From Hyphomonadaceae bacterium (GTDB taxonomy: Bacteria; Pseudomonadota; Alphaproteobacteria; Caulobacterales; Hyphomonadaceae), in NCBI GenBank assembly GCA_030697555.1, contig JAUYPV010000158.1, forward strand, positions 1 through 36,447: 36,447 nucleotides of DNA, given 5' to 3'. The notes beneath the pieces were generated by a model that saw nothing but the letters and a program-made list of their open reading frames with translations, was not told the origin of the DNA and did not search any database. Of the stretch, positions 237 to 6,816 are shown in pieces; positions within the stretch are counted from its first letter, which is position 1, and the number at the start of each line of letters is the position of its first letter. Position numbers and translations under genes: made by a program.

Positions 237-1266
237 GCTGGTCCGAACGAGCCCGCGCCGAAAAATCGAAAATCCACAACTTATGTTCTTGAAATGTTCC
301 AAATGGCCTGCTAGCCATTTCCACGTTGGGCCGGAGCAATCCGGAGTGGGGGACGGGCTCATGGTCAGCCGCATCACCACATTTGCGTTCGAAGGCGTCG
401 AGGCTCGCCCTGTCGATGTGCAGGTTCAGCTTTCGGGCGGCTCGAACTACTTCGCCATCGTCGGCCTCCCCGACAAGGCGGTGAAGGAAAGCCAGGATCG
501 GGTGCGCGCCGCCTTCGTGTCGCTCGGCCTCTCGCTCCCGCCCGAACGCGTCATCGTCAACCTCGCCCCGGCCGACCTGCCGAAGGAAGGCAGCCACTAC
601 GATCTCGCCATCGCGCTTGCGATCCTCGCCGCCATTGGCGCCATCCCGAAGGACTCGCTCGAAGGCGTCGCCGCCATCGGCGAACTCTCGCTTGATGGCG
701 CGCTCGCCGACACCGCCGGCGCGCTTCCCGCCGCGATGGCGGCCGAAGCGATGGAAATGGCGCTGGTCTGTCCCGCTTCCTGCGGTCCGGAAGCCGCCTG
801 GTCCGGCGGCACGGTGCTCGCCGCGCCCTCCCTCATCTCGCTGATCAACCATTTCCAGGGCACGCGCCACATCATGCCGGCCAAGTCCGGGCCGCTTGCC
901 GATCCTGCTCACGTGCCCGACCTGCGCGACGTGAAAGGCCAGGAAGGCGCCAAGCGTGCACTCGAGATCGCCGCCGCCGGCGGCCACAATCTCCTGATGA
1001 TCGGCCCGCCGGGCTCGGGCAAGTCCATGCTGGCGCAACGCTTGCCGGGCCTTCTGCCGCCGCTGTCGGCGCGCGAGCTTCTCGAAGTCAGCCAGATCCA
1101 CTCCATCGCCGGCCTGCTCGAACGCGGGCGCCTGTCGCGCACACGCCCATTCCGCTCACCGCACCATTCCGCCAGCATGGCCGCCATGGTCGGCGGCGGC
1201 ATCAAGGCTCGCCCCGGCGAAGCCTCCATGGCGCATCACGGAGTCCTCTTCCTCGACGAGCTTCCC

Positions 1267-1274
1267 GAATTCCA
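1267..1274. repeat. 8-bp target site duplication, left copy
   Basis: GAATTCCA directly abuts the left terminal repeat and is repeated exactly at 6178-6185. An 8-bp duplication is characteristic of the IS1595 family. The sequence is native comM (codons for EFH). Confidence 0.95.
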
Positions 1275-1301
1275 CGGCATTATGGAGCAGCCACACCACT
1301 A
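1275..1301 (+). repeat. left terminal inverted repeat
   Basis: 27 bp starting CGGCATTATGGAGCAG and ending CACACCACTA. It matches the inverted right end (6151-6177) at 26 of 27 positions; the difference is GCAGCC here against GCAACC there. It supplies the nonsense tail and stop of the 5' comM fragment. Confidence 0.95.
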
Positions 1302-1335
1302 GATGTGGTGGTGTTACCAGCTAGATGTGGTGGTG
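1299..1335 (+). repeat. subterminal 15-bp direct repeat at left end
   Basis: CTAGATGTGGTGGTG occurs at 1299-1313 and 1321-1335, offset by 22 bp (about two helical turns). The first copy overlaps the end of the terminal repeat and runs into GGTGTTACC, which resembles the 16-bp dyad found elsewhere in the element. A transposase or regulator binding region is a reasonable guess. Confidence 0.6.
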
Positions 1336-1432
1336 AAGACTGACAGGCCGCTGTTGAGCGGGTGCTCCGTTTGTTAGAATTTGCGGTAAGTCAATCCTGA
1401 AATAGCAGAGCCACGGCCATTCTTATCATATT

Positions 1433-1696
1433 GTGGAAAGTGCTTTTCTCATATCAATAGTTAGCCGCGGAACGAGCGCGGCAAACGCCTCCGATCCGCT
1501 AGAAAGGAGGCCCCACGTAAATCAGCGCATCTGGCTTGAGGTTCTGATCGCGTCACTGCTGTGCACAGCAGCCGTGTTCACGTATCTCGCAAAAGCAGAG
1601 AGCGATGGAGGAAGCGCTAGCTTCGCACCACCGCCCTCACAATCCGCCCTTCGCGCCAATGTTGATCAAAACCGCGAAGAACAGTCACAACCCTAG
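1433..1696 (+). CDS. possible small single-pass membrane protein in the element
   Basis: This 87-codon frame opens with GTG 1433 and ends at TAG 1694-1696. It contains one clear hydrophobic segment (VLIASLLCTAAVFTYLA) followed by a polar Ser/Pro/Gln tail, so an inner-membrane peptide facing the periplasm is plausible. Odd point: the only strong Shine-Dalgarno sequence (AGAAAGGAGG, 1501-1510) lies six bases before an in-frame GTA (1517-1519), which is not a normal start codon. A former GTG or ATG start may have mutated, or the upstream GTG is used. No function can be named, and it may not be expressed. Confidence 0.4.
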   Translation: MESAFLISIVSRGTSAANASDPLERRPHVNQRIWLEVLIASLLCTAAVFTYLAKAESDGGSASFAPPPSQSALRANVDQNREEQSQP

Positions 1697-1752
1697 ACCC
1701 GGGAGCGCCCCGCCGCAACGACGGGGCGCTCTTGGCGCTGCAAATGATGGCT

Positions 1753-1783
1753 TGTACCATCGTTGTTGATGGTGTATACCATG
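1753..1783 (+). promoter_or_regulatory. promoter with overlapping dyad before the 154-residue cargo gene
   Basis: TTGTAC (1753-1758) and TATACC (1775-1780) are spaced 16 bp apart as -35 and -10. The -10 lies inside GATGGTGTATACCATG (1768-1783), one copy of the recurring 16-bp dyad. An ACCATC-N6-GATGGT inverted repeat (1756-1773) overlaps the spacer. A start site about 7 bp after the -10 would fall almost on ATG 1789, giving a leaderless or near-leaderless mRNA. A protein bound here would block RNA polymerase. Confidence 0.5.
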
Positions 1784-1788
1784 AGACT

Positions 1789-2253
1789 ATGGAACGCCCT
1801 AACACGATCTCCGGCCTTCAGGCCAAACGCGCCGAGCTTATCAAGCTCCACGAAAACCTAGTGGCTGACGCCAAAAAGGTGATGGTCGATATAGACCACC
1901 TGGACGCCACGATCCGGCTATTTGACCCGGACGCGGACCTCTCCCGCCGCATGAAAAACCGCTACGCAATAAAGCATCGCGCGCACTTCGGTCACTCGCG
2001 CCGGTTCGTGTTGAACGCGCTGCGCACGTCCACGGCGCCTATGACCTCCAAGGCCATCACCTACGAATGGATAAAGGACCGAGGCCTCAAGCCTGACGAG
2101 GCCACGCGCGTCATACTGACGAAGCGCATCGGCGCCTGCATCAGCGGCCTCCGCAAGGACGGTCACATCGAGTACGCGGGCATGGATGGCGAGTACAAGA
2201 CGTGGCGCGTTAAGCCTGATGCCCCCAACGGTAAACACCGATCAGATGTGTGA
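1789..2253 (+). CDS. cargo protein with N-terminal coiled coil and C-terminal winged helix
   Basis: 154 residues from ATG 1789 (MERPNTISGLQAKRAEL) to TGA 2251-2253. The frame extends 19 codons further up, but those lie in the promoter dyad, and TISGLxAKRAEL is where related proteins I remember begin. Residues 5-45 look like a heptad-rich helix (LQAKRAELIKLHENLVADAKK) ending in the conserved DATIRLFDPD. Residues about 70-145 fit a winged helix (SRRFVLNALRTSTAPMTSKAI ... GACISGLRKDGHIEY). Similar short proteins are common in alphaproteobacterial accessory DNA, often beside IS1595-type transposases. The function is unknown; DNA binding, perhaps in regulating the element, is inference. Confidence 0.75.
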   Translation: MERPNTISGLQAKRAELIKLHENLVADAKKVMVDIDHLDATIRLFDPDADLSRRMKNRYAIKHRAHFGHSRRFVLNALRTSTAPMTSKAITYEWIKDRGLKPDEATRVILTKRIGACISGLRKDGHIEYAGMDGEYKTWRVKPDAPNGKHRSDV

Positions 2254-2562
2254 ATTTGGTGGTGGAGGGTAGGAAGTGAGTTGCGCCATGCGTTTGCGCC
2301 CGCTGCGGCTGTATTCGCCCCAGCGACTCCTTGACTTTCTTGTCATTTTCCTATAACTGCCCCAGTTGGATAGGCGGCGAGCGCCTCGGGAAGCGATCCC
2401 AAGGCGCTGCCATCCTACCTCAGGCTAATATCGCGCGAGCTTTTCGCACGGTGACACCTCCCTCAGGGTTAGCCCGGTTCAGGGGCGAGGTTAGTGGGCG
2501 CGACCCACCGATAACGACCGAAGAGGCAGACACCTCTTCGGTCGAATTCGTTTTGGCTCCGA
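2254..2562. other. intergenic stretch in the element, no convincing gene
   Basis: 309 bp between convergent cargo genes. It contains TTGACT (2331-2336) and TATAAC (2352-2357) only 15 bp apart, a weak plus-strand promoter candidate, and the strong hairpin at 2515-2544. A 90-codon plus-strand frame at 2331-2603 overlaps the end of the opposite gene and has no recognisable features, so I do not call it. Confidence 0.5.
2515..2544 (-). terminator. strong hairpin, probable terminator of the 285-residue cargo gene
   Basis: Perfect 12-bp stem CGACCGAAGAGG / CCTCTTCGGTCG with a 6-nt loop, 18 bp past the stop of the minus-strand gene ending at 2563. On the minus strand it is followed by TTATC, a weak U-tract. 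On the plus strand AATTCGTTTT follows, so it may act in both directions between the converging genes. Confidence 0.65.
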
Positions 2563-3420
2563 TCATGCTTGATCGCCTTCTGAAGGCGCCGGCGGCGCCT
2601 TGAGCCATTTGCTCTCTTTGTTTCGATCGCCGATTAGGGGGCCAGGAAAGCAGAGCCCGTCTGCGCCTTTGACGATCTGTTTTCTGCGCACCAACCGGGC
2701 AACGATGTTGAACGCGCCGGTTCTGTGGGGGGTCAGAGTCGCCTTGAATTCCACGTCGTTTTGCAATTCGGCGACGATGTCAGGCGCCCTCACTCCTTTG
2801 AAGCGATTGCGATAGACAATATCCAGAACCGCCTCGCCCATCGGCGAATAGGATCCTACTATTGCCTCTGGTTTTTCTGTGATCCGGCCTTGAGCAACGG
2901 CCTTCAGGTAGTTTTCCAACGCCTCGGCAGTGTAAAGCCTGTTGCCGTGCTTCTTGATCACTCCGCGATTCTGGAGGCGGCTGAGGGCATTGTAATAGCC
3001 CTTCTCGCTCTCCCGAAACTTCGGCCCCCATTCAGTTGAAAGCATCTGTGACTTCAACTCGGCGTGGGTCATTCCTGCGGGCGTGCTGGCAACCCAAGCT
3101 GCAACTGCCGCCACCCAAGTTACCTTGGGCTCACCGCCCTTGGGCCGCTTATTGTGAGCGACCTTCTTTTTTTCTTTAGCCCCCGCATAGTCTCCCAAAA
3201 GCGCGCCTAGGCCACGACCGAGACGAGCGGGCTCCGGCATTGGCTCGCCACTATCGACCGCAGCAAGCTGGCGGAGGAGCTTGAGTTTCGTCTCAGCCCT
3301 GCTCCGTCGGGCAGCAAGAGCGCTTTCCTCTCCGGAGATGTCCTCCAGCTCACGTTCGCAACGCTGGAGTTCTTCGTCCCAGCGGGTGCCCTCGGAAAAA
3401 TTTGATGACCCATCGCTCAT
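2563..3420 (-). CDS. cargo protein with coiled coil and two probable winged-helix domains
   Basis: 285 residues from ATG 3420 (MSDGSSNFSEGTRWDEEL), preceded by GGGGAC; the frame continues upstream but without a better start. Residues about 12-55 form a charged, leucine-containing helix (ELQRCERELEDISGEESAL), likely a coiled coil. A basic linker (KEKKKVAHNKRPKGG) leads to a probable winged helix (GMTHAELKSQML ... LSRLQNRGVIKKHGNRLY), followed by a second similar unit (APDIVAELQ ... VARLVRRKQIVKGADGL). The layout mirrors the 154-residue cargo protein, enlarged by one domain. I know of no named function. A DNA-binding role is inferred from the fold pattern and basic linker only. It points toward the left end and is closed by the hairpin at 2515-2544. 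Confidence 0.65.
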   Translation of the reverse strand: MSDGSSNFSEGTRWDEELQRCERELEDISGEESALAARRSRAETKLKLLRQLAAVDSGEPMPEPARLGRGLGALLGDYAGAKEKKKVAHNKRPKGGEPKVTWVAAVAAWVASTPAGMTHAELKSQMLSTEWGPKFRESEKGYYNALSRLQNRGVIKKHGNRLYTAEALENYLKAVAQGRITEKPEAIVGSYSPMGEAVLDIVYRNRFKGVRAPDIVAELQNDVEFKATLTPHRTGAFNIVARLVRRKQIVKGADGLCFPGPLIGDRNKESKWLKAPPAPSEGDQA

Positions 3421-3928
3421 AATAAGTCCCCATACAACGGTTTCTGTTGAGGGGCAAGCGCGTGAGCGGTTCTTCTTTTGTCCGGAACGATCCCGGAACG
3501 TGCGAGGCCTAGAGATGACTAGCTTGACAGTCACGCTGAACTTAAGCGAGCCTCTCTTTGGCGCTCGTCGTCCCTTCTTCGTCTGCTTCTCCGCCCTCAG
3601 CGGCCCTGAAAAGGCCCGGGGCGCGCAAAGGCGGTCCGGAGCCCCCGGCTTTCACCGGGGACCACGGAGACGAGCATGGGAAACGTGTTCTGTGTCTGGC
3701 CGAAGGCGGTTTCGGTACGCGAGTACCTCCGCTTCCGGTTCGGGCGGTGGGAGCAGGTCTGCTCTCACTGCCGGAGTCATCCGACCCGCTGACACGGGTT
3801 TGAAGACTTGAGACAGGGGCGACGGGCGCCACTGATTTGGAATTTTCGGTCAGGGTTGGGGCCATGTCCACCCCCAAATGGACACTCGATTCAATGGCTT
3901 AGGGCGAGTCGGCGCGTGAGCGAATCGC
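3421..3928. other. spacer between two minus-strand element genes
   Basis: 508 bp between the transposase stop and the 285-residue cargo gene. It holds one small plus-strand ORF with a ribosome binding site (3676-3792) and a perfect -35-like TTGACA at 3524-3529 without a convincing -10. The larger frames here (3281-3811 plus, 3542-3877 minus) are Ser/Pro/Arg-rich with no visible domain, typical of shadow frames in GC-rich DNA. Confidence 0.5.
3676..3792 (+). CDS. small 38-residue ORF, Arg/aromatic-rich
   Basis: ATG 3676 follows GGAGA (3666-3670) at good spacing and the frame ends at TGA 3790-3792. The peptide begins MGNVFCVWPKAVSVREYLRF and continues FRFGRWEQVCSHCRSHPTR. It is basic and aromatic with three cysteines (C6, C30, C33). 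The CSHC pair could bind metal but is too short to be sure. Short peptides with a YxRFRxGRxExVxxHxRS pattern occur in alphaproteobacterial phage and mobile DNA as far as I recall, but I cannot name a family. It runs against both flanking genes. Function unknown. Confidence 0.4.
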   Translation: MGNVFCVWPKAVSVREYLRFRFGRWEQVCSHCRSHPTR

Positions 3929-3932
3929 TCAC
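3916..3932. repeat. 17-bp dyad over the transposase stop codon
   Basis: GTGAGCGA-A-TCGCTCAC is a perfect 8-bp inverted repeat with one central base, overlapping the transposase stop (3929-3931). The one-base centre is poor for an RNA hairpin, so a protein-binding dyad or a chance palindrome are alternatives to a terminator. Confidence 0.4.
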
Positions 3933-4891
3933 ACCCTCTTCCTCTGCCAATAACCGCGCCAGGCCTTCGACACGGGAGCCGCCATCGCGGCGTCGGCGAT
4001 CATTGCGAATTGAGCGCCGTTAGACGTGCGCCGAAAATCCTCGCGCCACGCCATCTCCGAAGCATAGGCATTGAGGTAAGGACCCGCGATGTGGTGATGG
4101 ATACCAGTCTCGGCGCGGCGCAAGCGCGAGAAGAATGACTCTGCCGAGTTGGTGCAGGCGCCATCGAGCGAATACGCAACGCCGTGATTGATGCGCTTTA
4201 TATCGAAGCGCGCGCTGAGAACGTCCCAGTGCGCAGCCTCGTCAGCGTGAACGGTTGAGTTCGGGGTGATGTTGGCGGTGGCGAGCGCAACGCCATCACG
4301 CTCTGCCTTCACGACAAAAGCGCGAGTGCGGCCAGCACGCTCGCGCATCGCAATCACGACCTGTCGCTTGCCGGTCTGTTGCTCAGCAAGGCGGCGGTCC
4401 TTGCGGTCGGTTTTCTTATTCGCGGGCTTCACGTAGCCGCCGAAGTAGGCGCCATCGAGCTCGACTGTGCCTTCCAGTATCGACTTGTCCGAAGCGAGGC
4501 CGATCGCTTCGCGCATTTTGTGGCAAAGCACGAAGGCGGTTTTGTAATCGCAGCCGAGATCGCGCGAGAGTTGGAGGGCGCCGTAGCCTTTGGCCCCATT
4601 CACGAATATCGCGATGGCCGCGAGTATGTTCCGCACTTCCATTTTGCGGCTCGCGAAGATCGTCCCGGCAGTCAGGCTGAACTGCGCGAGGCAGCCTTTG
4701 CATTTGAAGATTTTGCGCGTCGTGATCTCGTAAGCTTCGACACAGCCGCACTTCGGGCAGACCGGCTCGCCGTCCGTGTCGGCCCAGCGGATCTTGCGAA
4801 ATACCGCGCGGGCCTCGTCATCCGACATGCGGAGAACCGAAGCCAGTTTCAGCGACTTGGCGGCGGGGGAGAGGAGGAAGTGTTGGCTCAT
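3929..4891 (-). CDS. IS1595-family transposase
   Basis: 320 residues from ATG 4891 (MSQHFLLSPAAKSLKLASVL); nine more in-frame codons upstream lie in the promoter region. It cuts and joins the element ends. An N-terminal zinc ribbon carries C45/C48 (CPKC) and C64/C67 (CKGC). The DDE/ISXO2-like core shows the first Asp in ELDGAYFGG (D146), the second in HADEAAHW (D217), and the third-position signature NSAESFFSRLRRAETGIHHHI, with candidate residues N248 and E251. The C-terminus (YASEMAWREDFRR) matches the family's usual ending. Length is normal with no frameshift, so it is probably active. It diverges from the DUF6471 gene, and copies of the 16-bp dyad overlap both promoters, suggesting joint control. 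Confidence 0.96.
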   Translation of the reverse strand: MSQHFLLSPAAKSLKLASVLRMSDDEARAVFRKIRWADTDGEPVCPKCGCVEAYEITTRKIFKCKGCLAQFSLTAGTIFASRKMEVRNILAAIAIFVNGAKGYGALQLSRDLGCDYKTAFVLCHKMREAIGLASDKSILEGTVELDGAYFGGYVKPANKKTDRKDRRLAEQQTGKRQVVIAMRERAGRTRAFVVKAERDGVALATANITPNSTVHADEAAHWDVLSARFDIKRINHGVAYSLDGACTNSAESFFSRLRRAETGIHHHIAGPYLNAYASEMAWREDFRRTSNGAQFAMIADAAMAAPVSKAWRGYWQRKRV

Positions 4892-4903
4892 ACCGGCGTT
4901 TCC

Positions 4904-4975
4904 CGTGGTGTATACCATCCTATATGATGGTAGACGCCACCGCCGTCAAGGGTGTATACCACCAATAATGATGGT
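4904..4975. promoter_or_regulatory. divergent promoter/operator region between transposase and DUF6471 gene
   Basis: Two copies of the 16-bp dyad lie here: CGTGGTGTATACCATC (4904-4919) and AAGGGTGTATACCACC (4948-4963). They are overlapped by ACCATC-N6-GATGGT (4914-4931) and ACCACC-N6-GATGGT (4958-4975). On the minus strand TTGACG (4944-4949) and CATATA (4921-4926) are 17 bp apart and fit a transposase promoter. On the plus strand TAGACG (4931-4936) and TATACC (4955-4960) fit the DUF6471 promoter. The two promoters overlap, so a repressor bound to either dyad would affect both genes. Confidence 0.55.
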
Positions 4976-4990
4976 ATTTTGGAGCCGAGA

Positions 4991-5224
4991 ATGGCCGCCA
5001 AGAAGAAACAACCGGAAGTTGATTATTCCGAAGTCGCGAAAAACGTCCTGAAAGCCGAGCTGCGGCGCCGGGGCGTCACCTATGCCGATCTAGCCGCGAA
5101 GCTGGGCAATGGCGAGAACGACAAGAACCTCAACAACAAGATAGCCCGTGGCGGGTTCTCAGCCGCGTTCCTGATGCAATGCCTCGATGTGATAGGGGCT
5201 AAAGCGATACAGATAGCGGACTAA
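4991..5224 (+). CDS. DUF6471 domain protein (small, helix-turn-helix-like)
   Basis: 77 residues from ATG 4991 (MAAKKKQPEVDYSEVAKNVL), chosen because GGAG at 4981-4984 sits at the right distance; the earlier ATG at 4952 lies inside the operator. The body matches the DUF6471 pattern I remember: LKAELRRRGVTYADLAAKLG, then NDKNLNNKIARGGFSAAFLMQ, ending in CLDVIGAKAIQIAD. The VTYADLAAKL...NLNNKIARG layout resembles a Cro/C1-type helix-turn-helix. Such genes are frequent near IS1595 transposases and in prophages. It is the best candidate in the element for binding the repeated dyad and repressing the divergent transposase gene, but that is inference. The two-TM protein gene follows after 21 bp, probably co-transcribed. 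Confidence 0.82.
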   Translation: MAAKKKQPEVDYSEVAKNVLKAELRRRGVTYADLAAKLGNGENDKNLNNKIARGGFSAAFLMQCLDVIGAKAIQIAD

Positions 5225-5245
5225 GGCCGCTGGCGGGGGTGGGTT

Positions 5246-6034
5246 GTGACGCGACCCGGATGGAAGGACATCGCGCAAATAGGCGCGGGTTTGGCGCTTG
5301 CGGGGCTCGTCATAGGCGGCGCCCACCTATCCAAGATTCATCACGATCAAATACAGCCCCGCATAGAGCAGCGCCAAAGCGCCAACGGCGTGGATGACAA
5401 AAGGCAGGTGGTCCCGGTCAACCCCGCGCCAGCCAACCCAACCGCCAACCAGCAGCAGCAGAGCCCCCAGAAGGAGCCAGATTGGGTTGCGATTGGCGGT
5501 CTGGCGGTCGCTGCGTTGGGCCTGGTCTTTGTTCTTCGGACCTTCTACCTGCAGCGCATTGCGACCATTGGCGACTTGCGCGCGTATGTTCGGATCGATG
5601 TTACCAAGAGCGTGATTTCTGTCGGGCTCCCCGTCGTCGCCACTCTGCAGCCGCAGAACTACGGCAAGACGCCTGCAACTGGGGTAACCGTGGCGCGAAG
5701 TATCTTTATACGTCCCGCAGCTTGGCGTTGGGGAGATGAACCAGACCCGCCGCTCGGGAAGGACGAAGAAACCGACATGGTTTTGCACCCCGGAGATAAG
5801 ACCCAAACAATCGCTACAGTCGTCAACAAGGACGGCAGCCCCTTCACTCTGACCAAACAATTTTTTGACGCCATACTCAGTGGCAGGCTGTGCATTTTCG
5901 CCCGGGGCATAGTCGTTTACCGCGACGCCTTTCGCAAAAAGCGGCACACCGAAATGCGCTTCGAATTCTCGGGCCCAGATTGCGCCGCCGCCGGGCATTG
6001 GCGCGCTAGCACGAAAGGCAGCCGATCCACCTAG
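5246..6034 (+). CDS. two-TM membrane protein with a periplasmic-type domain, unknown function
   Basis: 262 residues from GTG 5246, just after a GGGGGTGGG run, 21 bp behind the DUF6471 gene. TM1 is about residues 8-28 (IAQIGAGLALAGLVIGGAHL), followed by a Pro/Asn/Gln-rich linker (55-78). TM2 is about 81-98 (VAIGGLAVAALGLVFVL), followed by a soluble region of about 160 residues with LRAYVRIDV and QNYGKTPATGVTV. Proteins with an L-R-A-Y-V start and an N-x-G-K-T-P-A motif are common, uncharacterised cargo in proteobacterial mobile DNA. The fold after TM2 looks beta-rich. Nothing identifies an enzyme or toxin. Stop TAG 6032-6034. Confidence 0.65.
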   Translation: MTRPGWKDIAQIGAGLALAGLVIGGAHLSKIHHDQIQPRIEQRQSANGVDDKRQVVPVNPAPANPTANQQQQSPQKEPDWVAIGGLAVAALGLVFVLRTFYLQRIATIGDLRAYVRIDVTKSVISVGLPVVATLQPQNYGKTPATGVTVARSIFIRPAAWRWGDEPDPPLGKDEETDMVLHPGDKTQTIATVVNKDGSPFTLTKQFFDAILSGRLCIFARGIVVYRDAFRKKRHTEMRFEFSGPDCAAAGHWRASTKGSRST

Positions 6035-6132
6035 CGCTAGCGCGAACAACGCAATCGCAAATTTTTCCACGGAATTCCAACCTCTCTAGGTTTGAGAAGT
6101 CGGCATTACGCGAGGTAAACACCCAATCTAGA

Positions 6133-6148
6133 GATGGTATACACCATC
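6133..6148 (-). promoter_or_regulatory. 16-bp dyad next to the right end of the element
   Basis: Read on the minus strand this is exactly GATGGTGTATACCATC, the consensus of the repeated dyad, two bases inside the right terminal repeat (6151-6177). Its place beside the repeat suggests the same protein that binds the internal promoters also binds the transposon end. Confidence 0.55.
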
Positions 6149-6150
6149 AA

Positions 6151-6177
6151 TAGTGGTGTGGTTGCTCCATAATGCCG
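6151..6177 (-). repeat. right terminal inverted repeat
   Basis: 27 bp ending GCTCCATAATGCCG, the inverted match of 1275-1301 with one mismatch. It contributes ATG 6172-6174, which by chance is in frame with the downstream comM fragment. Confidence 0.95.
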
Positions 6178-6816
6178 GAATTCCATGCGCAGGTGCTCGA
6201 CAGTCTCCGCCAGCCAATGGAAGGCGGCGAGGCCGTCATCTCCCGCGCCAACCGCCACGTCCGTTACCCCTCGCGCTTCCAGCTCGTCGCCGCAGCCAAT
6301 CCCTGCAAGTGCGGTGGAGGGCCCGGCGCGTTTGCATGCCGCAAAGGTCCGCAGTGTCAGGCGAACTACTTCTCGCGCATTTCCGGCCCCTTCCTCGATC
6401 GCATCGATCTCTTCGTCGATGTCGCGGCCGTCACAGCAACCGACCTCTCCCTGCCGCCTCCCACGGAAGGAACCGCCGAGGCCGCCGCCCGCGTCTTCAA
6501 GGCTCGCGAGAAACAGGCGAAGCGTTTTGGCGAGCCGGGCGACAATCGCCGCGCCGTCAACGCCGATGCTCCCGGCGCGGAAATCGAAGCGCTCTGCGCG
6601 CTGGACGGCGGCGCCCGCGCCCTCGTGGTGAAGGCGGCCGAACAGCTCTCCCTCTCGGCCCGCGCCTATCATCGCGTGTTGAAAGTCGCCCGCACCATCG
6701 CCGATCTCGATGGCGCGGCGAGCGTCGCCCGCGTCCACACCGCCGAAGCGCTCACCTACCGCTACCGTCCGGCCATGCCCGCATCTGCCCGCGCTTCGCA
6801 AGGCCTCACTGCGTGA
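6172..6816 (+). pseudogene. comM: comM 3' fragment
   Basis: From 6178 on this is native comM, continuing exactly where the left fragment breaks: EFHAQVLDSLRQPMEGGEAV, then the zinc-associated CKCGGGP...CRKGPQCQ cysteine cluster, the ISGPFLDRIDLFVDV arginine-finger region, and the C-terminal Mg_chelatase_C domain (LSARAYHRVLKVARTIADL). It stops at TGA 6814-6816. The frame begins with an ATG that belongs to the transposon end, with no ribosome binding site before it. A fragment of 214 residues could be made if transcription leaves the element, but without Walker A and B it could not work as an ATPase. Confidence 0.95.
6178..6185. repeat. 8-bp target site duplication, right copy
   Basis: GAATTCCA, identical to 1267-1274, immediately after the right terminal repeat; native comM continues at 6186. 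Confidence 0.95.

Follow-up and report, generated by a model that had tools for sequence, protein, structure and literature searches.

Target sites of IS1595-family elements in alphaproteobacteria, among them one inserted in comM, appear to change with a small accompanying protein

The window analyzed here, a stretch of 36,447 nucleotides from a Hyphomonadaceae bacterium (contig JAUYPV010000158.1), contains a complete IS1595-family element of 4,903 bp at positions 1275-6177 that is inserted within the gene comM, and the locus raises the question of what brought the element to this exact point. The answer considered likely, by comparison of natural elements, is that this is a modular site-specific transposon in which a protein of 154 amino acids (aa), here named p150, serves as an exchangeable target selector. 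In that comparison the insertion sites recur, the site co-varies with p150 and the terminal repeats with the transposase, modules are exchanged between lineages, and p150 has a predicted fold.

The sequence-only reading of this DNA had proposed that an entire IS1595-family transposon, with ends defined to the base, lies inside comM, and this description was borne out. The terminal inverted repeats agree at 26/27 positions, the transposase matches the Pfam families DDE_Tnp_IS1595 (2.5e-42) and Zn_ribbon_IS1595 (7.2e-15), the target duplication GAATTCCA is identical at 8/8 positions, and the joined flanks give a single open comM frame of 514 residues. The insertion point lies directly after the residues FLDELP (FLDELP^EF), adjoining Walker B. 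Empty sites in sister genomes, which the same reading had suggested looking for, were found in 6 of the 15 same-genus genomes searched (own included), where comM is uninterrupted; of the remaining same-genus genomes, one has comM split in two frames, one has a partial comM, and six have no match (E 1e-100). In G009, of the same genus, the break between the two comM frames falls near residue 243, and no large insertion is present (L192/L194). No second copy of the element was found in its own genome.

Relatives were assembled in two samples. Transposase searches produced 80 unique training loci, of which 53 were bounded automatically, using an end rule that called for a repeat match of at least 19/26 and a duplication of at least 7/8, and one (L035) was added by hand. 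A second draw from other genomes, together with three plasmid copies, produced 44 held-out loci, of which 34 were bounded using a repeat match of at least 18/26 and a length below 9 kb. The bounded set consists of 88 elements (54 training and 34 held-out) that are 1.5-8.1 kb long and occur in many alphaproteobacteria, and the loci with no confirmed ends (26/80 training, 10/44 held-out) stand outside every target count. L049, which had no transposase match, was dropped, and L209, bounded by eye, is in no count. L047, the transposase of which is truncated, stands outside the transposase trees; its own site was classed as 'other', and it was counted under GT_A, defined below, for prediction by p150 clade. 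An order-level search gave a match in 51 of 299 genomes, with one match in 43 and two in 8.

The bounded elements fall repeatedly at five named sites. Twenty-four occupy comM1, which consists of the identical 8 bp comprising the Glu-Phe codons and 2 nt after FLDELP, and four occupy a second comM site, comM2; a further 11, 9, and 4 lie at GT_A, GT_B, and GT_C, separate positions within a single family-2 glycosyltransferase gene, and 36 lie elsewhere. The training elements alone are distributed as 21 at comM1 (window element included), 2 at comM2, and 6, 5, and 3 at the glycosyltransferase positions in the same order. Chance as the origin of the comM insertion is excluded because 24 of 88 related bounded elements occupy the same 8 bp. 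A hotspot might also arise if elements inserted at random and selection then favoured cells that had lost comM, or transformation, and unrelated mobile elements do inactivate comM elsewhere, according to the portions of PMC11472951 and PMC4774983 drawn on here. Selection at the level of the gene, however, would not put 24 of 28 comM insertions at one site and the other four at a second, and selection on comM leaves the recurrent glycosyltransferase sites unexplained, which makes this account extremely improbable. Thirteen of the comM1 elements are oriented opposite to comM and 11 in the same direction (11 antisense and 10 sense in the training set). The orientation changes 11 times along the p150 tree, which favours repeated hits at comM1 over inheritance in place.

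The gene for p150 was found in 54/54 training elements by single-linkage BLAST clustering of open reading frames (ORFs) and in 34/34 bounded held-out elements by a profile built from the training p150s, and it was also found in 19/26 training and 8/10 held-out loci without confirmed ends. The p150 of the window, used alone as the query, reaches only 45 of the 87 other bounded elements, and the family is therefore divergent. The p150 and transposase genes are on opposite strands in 82/88 bounded elements, and p150 is no more than 250 bp from an element end in 79/88, the distance in the window element being 514 bp. The three plasmid copies (L181-L183, 1.5-1.7 kb) hold little beyond the transposase and p150. 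When 299 genomes of the phylum were searched for p150, 13 matched, all from the class of the window, the share of other classes among the 299 not being shown. Whether p150 occurs without a transposase was examined at six of 14 places with p150; four have a transposase match (one as short fragments only, one about 8 kb away) and two have none, one of these (L213) sitting at a contig end.

As judged by sequence comparison, the target site changes with p150 and not with the transposase. On the training trees the target label changes 7 times for p150 and 18 times for the transposase. When just the 52 named-site elements are taken, the number of changes is 4 for the p150 tree, which is the minimum, and 17 for the transposase tree, compared with a shuffled mean of 25.5 for both. 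GT_A, GT_B, GT_C, and comM2 each form a single p150 clade with bootstrap support of at least 99, and no single branch of the p150 tree separates comM1 from the rest (3 changes). Leave-one-out assignment by nearest neighbour was correct in 37/37 training elements using p150; at the named sites of the held-out set (n=15), the nearest p150 was correct in 15/15. Predictions based on p150 were fixed for 22 elements before the held-out targets were read, and 14 were right with none at a wrong named site. The partial correlation of target with p150, given the transposase, was 0.69 (0/500 permutations as high). That the transposase itself reads the target, with p150 as a regulator or passenger, is quite unlikely on these data. 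Targeting by the transposase alone is the default for insertion sequence (IS) elements, and the 17 label changes against 25.5 mean that targets are partly clustered on the transposase tree, but assignment by the nearest transposase gives the right site in just 2/15 held-out and 15/37 training elements, the partial correlation of target with transposase is -0.10 once p150 is accounted for, and transposases that are 95% identical occur with different targets.

The last point refers to L030, in comM, and L035, in the glycosyltransferase gene, the ends of which match while their p150 proteins are 31% identical. Their DNA is 88.6% identical over the transposase and has no blastn similarity beyond the transposase and ends, and the terminal repeat on the p150 side also follows the transposase. 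To judge from these sequences, the pair looks like a natural module exchange. L133 and L099 have 33% identical transposases and 57% identical p150 proteins at an identical comM site. Across the set, the terminal repeats correlate with the transposase given p150 (0.44, 0/500 permutations as high). Module boundaries between transposase and p150 would also exist if elements had been inherited in place in comM and their transposases replaced by gene conversion, so that p150 marked an old location. Such a history is very improbable: both orientations occur at comM1, the p150 tree showing 11 switches between them, comM1 elements are found in several families, empty sites occur within the genus of the window, and the repeats mainly follow the transposase, in L030/L035 even on the p150 side. 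The duplications are intact at 8/8 in 86/88 bounded elements, which also agrees with this, though 7/8 was itself an entry condition.

Because p150 and its neighbourhood are inherited together, congruence of trees cannot separate p150 from neighbouring DNA, and a guide RNA or non-coding DNA linked to p150 might choose the site. This is quite unlikely, given that matches of elements to their own target were no better than to other targets (mean difference 0.03, standard error 0.09, n 52), likewise for the 21 comM1 elements, and that no guide-like match to the own target was found within comM1 or across classes using ungapped short windows, which a split or gapped guide may escape.

For p150 as the selector itself, structure prediction offers a candidate means of recognition. 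The AlphaFold model has an N-terminal helix at residues 4-45 and a winged-helix domain at 67-141, with a mean pLDDT of 87.6 and ten-residue means of 91-97 across residues 71-140. The best Foldseek matches are, on the author's reading, mostly winged-helix DNA binders (Fur, LmrR, NolR, MarR, and linker histone). Classification of sites by p150 alignment columns was correct in 52/52 elements using the winged-helix columns alone and in 51/52 using the recognition helix. By this model, p150 is probably a winged-helix DNA binder.

Several results weigh against p150 as the selector. The correlation ties the target to p150 or to closely linked DNA, not to a biochemical action. All Foldseek matches for p150 have E of at least 0.009, with none at E 0.001 or below, and a search of Protein Data Bank (PDB) sequences with the p150 profile gave no convincing relative, the matches being weak and mostly to coiled coils, with one chain (2g9w) overlapping the winged-helix part at E 0.26. 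Sites are classified nearly as well from the coiled-coil and linker columns (49/52 and 50/52) as from the winged helix, so the classification fails to single out the DNA-binding part. As many as 36/88 bounded elements lie outside the five named sites, which makes the preference strong without being absolute, and the insertions at GT_A occur in two registers one base apart. Eight of the 22 advance predictions landed at unnamed sites, and the expected target gene is still in the genome for the seven of these eight that were checked (all but L183): comM is retained in G621, G462, and G782, and the glycosyltransferase gene is kept in G598 (two elements), G933, and G864, by gene-level match and not as the exact site. 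The terminal repeats also correlate slightly with p150 given the transposase (0.11, 6/500 permutations as high). L035 is without a proper left duplication and has its label from the right flank, and its omission leaves 4 versus 16 changes. The p150 of L114 is a long branch, 28% identical to its nearest relative.

Some of the elements at unnamed sites were noted individually. L177 (genome G853) interrupts comEC and L172 (G904) interrupts radC, each a single site; comM, comEC, and radC are described as targets of other mobile DNA in the sections of PMC11472951 and PMC4774983 used here. In G853 comM is already occupied by L160, so two competence genes are interrupted in this genome. A p150 clade comprising L087, L120, L123, and L128 inserts near CCTCTCCC-type sequences (by eye), L128 starting just past a tRNA-Ser gene (5756-5845), and this clade may represent a further target class. 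L019 and L020 have diverged comM-type p150s, 82% identical to each other; L019 lies outside comM in a genome without a comM match (G292), the genome of L020 (G059) keeps an open comM, and a change of target is possible. L019 and L177 fit a rule by which elements go off target solely if their site is absent or already taken. It was rejected as a general rule because G621, G462, G782, and G059 keep an open comM and G598, G933, and G864 keep the glycosyltransferase gene.

In the mechanism proposed for the element, an IS1595-type transposase would recognize the terminal repeats and make an 8-bp staggered insertion. The winged helix of p150 would bind a conserved coding sequence, in this case the stretch of comM next to the Walker B codons, and the long helix at the N terminus of p150 would probably dimerize, recruit the transposase, or both. 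Insertion in comM would thereby be fixed by p150 to one base-pair register in either orientation. The benefit to the element may be a target that is a conserved, dispensable competence gene, the loss of which may also reduce removal of the element by transformation.

Proteins dedicated to target selection have, to our knowledge, been described mainly for Tn7-like elements that have an ATPase adaptor. Tn7-like transposons carry genes for a TnsB-type transposase, the AAA+ protein TnsC, and TniQ/TnsD, and Tn7 inserts in one orientation, whereas both orientations are used here in one register; no Pfam match to AAA+, TniQ, TnsB-type, TnsC, or TnsD proteins was obtained among the eight window ORFs scanned. 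The target specificity of IS110-type bridge-RNA elements is likewise coded by the element, with different transposase chemistry, and the present elements differ in that no guide-like match was found in ungapped short windows. According to Faure et al. 2023 (PMC10293859), the target of Tn7 TnsD is tied to the catalytic site of glmS, the Walker B region of comM is targeted by TnsF of the Tn7-like Tn6022 and by Tsy, with modular selectors, and TnsF is related to tyrosine recombinases and works with TniQ in Tn6022. The likeness to TnsD lies in protein-directed insertion tied to conserved codons, and the likeness to Tn6022/TnsF and Tsy in a dedicated protein that aims the element at the comM Walker B region. 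The p150 protein would work like TnsD or TnsF, yet is unrelated to either; it differs from TnsF and Tsy as a small predicted winged helix, not related to tyrosine recombinases, that stands beside a DDE IS1595 transposase.

An IS1595 element with a target selector or with fixed comM targeting was not found in the literature by titles and abstract starts, a search that did not cover Siguier et al. 2009 on IS1595. That work is cited in PMC3129680 for IS copies with passenger genes. Members of the IS1595 family usually have a single transposase gene, an 8-bp duplication, and terminal inverted repeats, as given in an excerpt of PMC8101967. The present elements resemble the family (including groups ISNwi and ISNha5) in these repeats and duplications and in the DDE_Tnp_IS1595 and zinc ribbon domains, and differ in that every bounded element, including the 1.5-1.7 kb L181-L183, has a second core gene, p150, that tracks the target, in their recurrent sites, and in occurring as a single match in 43 of the 51 genomes matched at order level. 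More than one gene does not exclude them from the family, because its description says 'usually' and members with passenger genes are known.

The features of the element and of the interrupted gene are listed in Table 1.

Table 1. Positions in the window of the element, its genes and motifs, and the interrupted comM
Feature	Position	Strand	Remarks
comM 5' part	361-1274	+	host gene, Mg-chelatase-like
Left target duplication copy, GAATTCCA	1267-1274		8 bp; comM codons Glu-Phe + 2 nt
Left terminal inverted repeat	1275-1301		27 bp; 26/27 match to right end
Doubtful ORF, 87 aa	1433-1696	+	possible small cargo gene; no family match
p150, 154 aa	1789-2253	+	proposed target selector; predicted long helix and winged helix; open frame from 1732
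Cargo protein, 285 aa	2563-3420	-	lies between transposase and p150, in a variable slot; no Pfam match passing the cut-off
DDE transposase, 320 aa	3929-4891	-	IS1595 family transposase (Pfam and NCBIfam)
Two GGTGTATACC motifs (4906, 4951)	4906-4976		between the divergent transposase and DUF6471 genes
DUF6471 protein, 77 aa	4991-5224	+	divergently oriented to transposase; Pfam PF20075, 3.4e-23
Protein of 262 aa	5246-6034	+	hydrophobic segments (by eye); one weak match (L096, 24%)
Right terminal inverted repeat	6151-6177		27 bp
Right target duplication copy, GAATTCCA	6178-6185		8 bp; identical to left copy (8/8)
comM 3' part	6178-6816	+

The sequence-only reading had counted four to six cargo genes in the element. 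Extra genes are indeed present, but one of those counted, p150, is a core gene found in 88/88 bounded elements. The cargo is not conserved as a set, and none of the other 87 bounded elements holds a match to the 285-aa gene. The doubtful 87-aa ORF likewise has no match in those 87. The DUF6471 gene was present in 46/54 training elements by clustering and was matched by tblastn in 69 of the other 87 bounded ones; no papers on DUF6471 were found in a literature search, and it would be a guess to call the protein a regulator. Several relatives carry a protein similar in kind at the position of the 262-aa gene (by eye, four clusters). A role of the cargo as a defence system was considered and rejected, since a PADLOC scan gave 0 matches among the five window proteins scanned. 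In L022 a cargo gene at 4782-5336 matches the antitoxin family SocA_Panacea (PF13274, 2e-14), and it has a BLAST relative in L103. Size and cargo had also been taken as marks of an undescribed transposon type; these alone are not new, because 'transporter ISs', which are IS copies whose passenger genes have no part in transposition, are already recognized, as stated in the part of PMC3129680 consulted.

Further occurrences of the GGTGTATACC/GGTATACACC motif lie ahead of p150 (1770) and, in reverse, in the right end (6136), and a few relatives carry a TCACCAAA-type motif at the same places. Across the 88 elements, nine 8-mers were common to all three regulatory stretches, compared with 0.3 expected from mononucleotide shuffles; they come from five elements only, the window element not among them. 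That the GGTGTATACC-type repeats are operators of a self-regulating circuit is a guess.

A further-reaching interpretation, held to be more likely than not, is that these elements, which are widespread in alphaproteobacteria, form a class of retargetable transposons with two proteins that had gone unrecognized, in which an IS1595 DDE transposase would be joined by a winged-helix selector that alone sets the site, with neither an AAA+ adaptor nor a guide RNA. The comM Walker B codons would then have been reached independently of TnsF and Tsy, and exchange of the selector would re-aim the element to comM, to the glycosyltransferase gene, and probably to other conserved sequences, including CCTCTCCC-type repeats. 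Protein-selected targeting appears to be achieved here with a common IS-type transposase by a very small system, its two proteins being roughly 320 and 150 aa long, and selectors appear to have been exchanged in nature on many occasions. Should p150 work in the proposed way, it would offer a simple model for aiming a DDE transposase and a collection of selector-site pairs for decoding winged-helix recognition. It would also add to Tn6022/TnsF and Tsy another example in which mobile DNA has converged on the comM Walker B codons, and such convergence would open to testing the idea that mobile DNA and natural transformation are in conflict.

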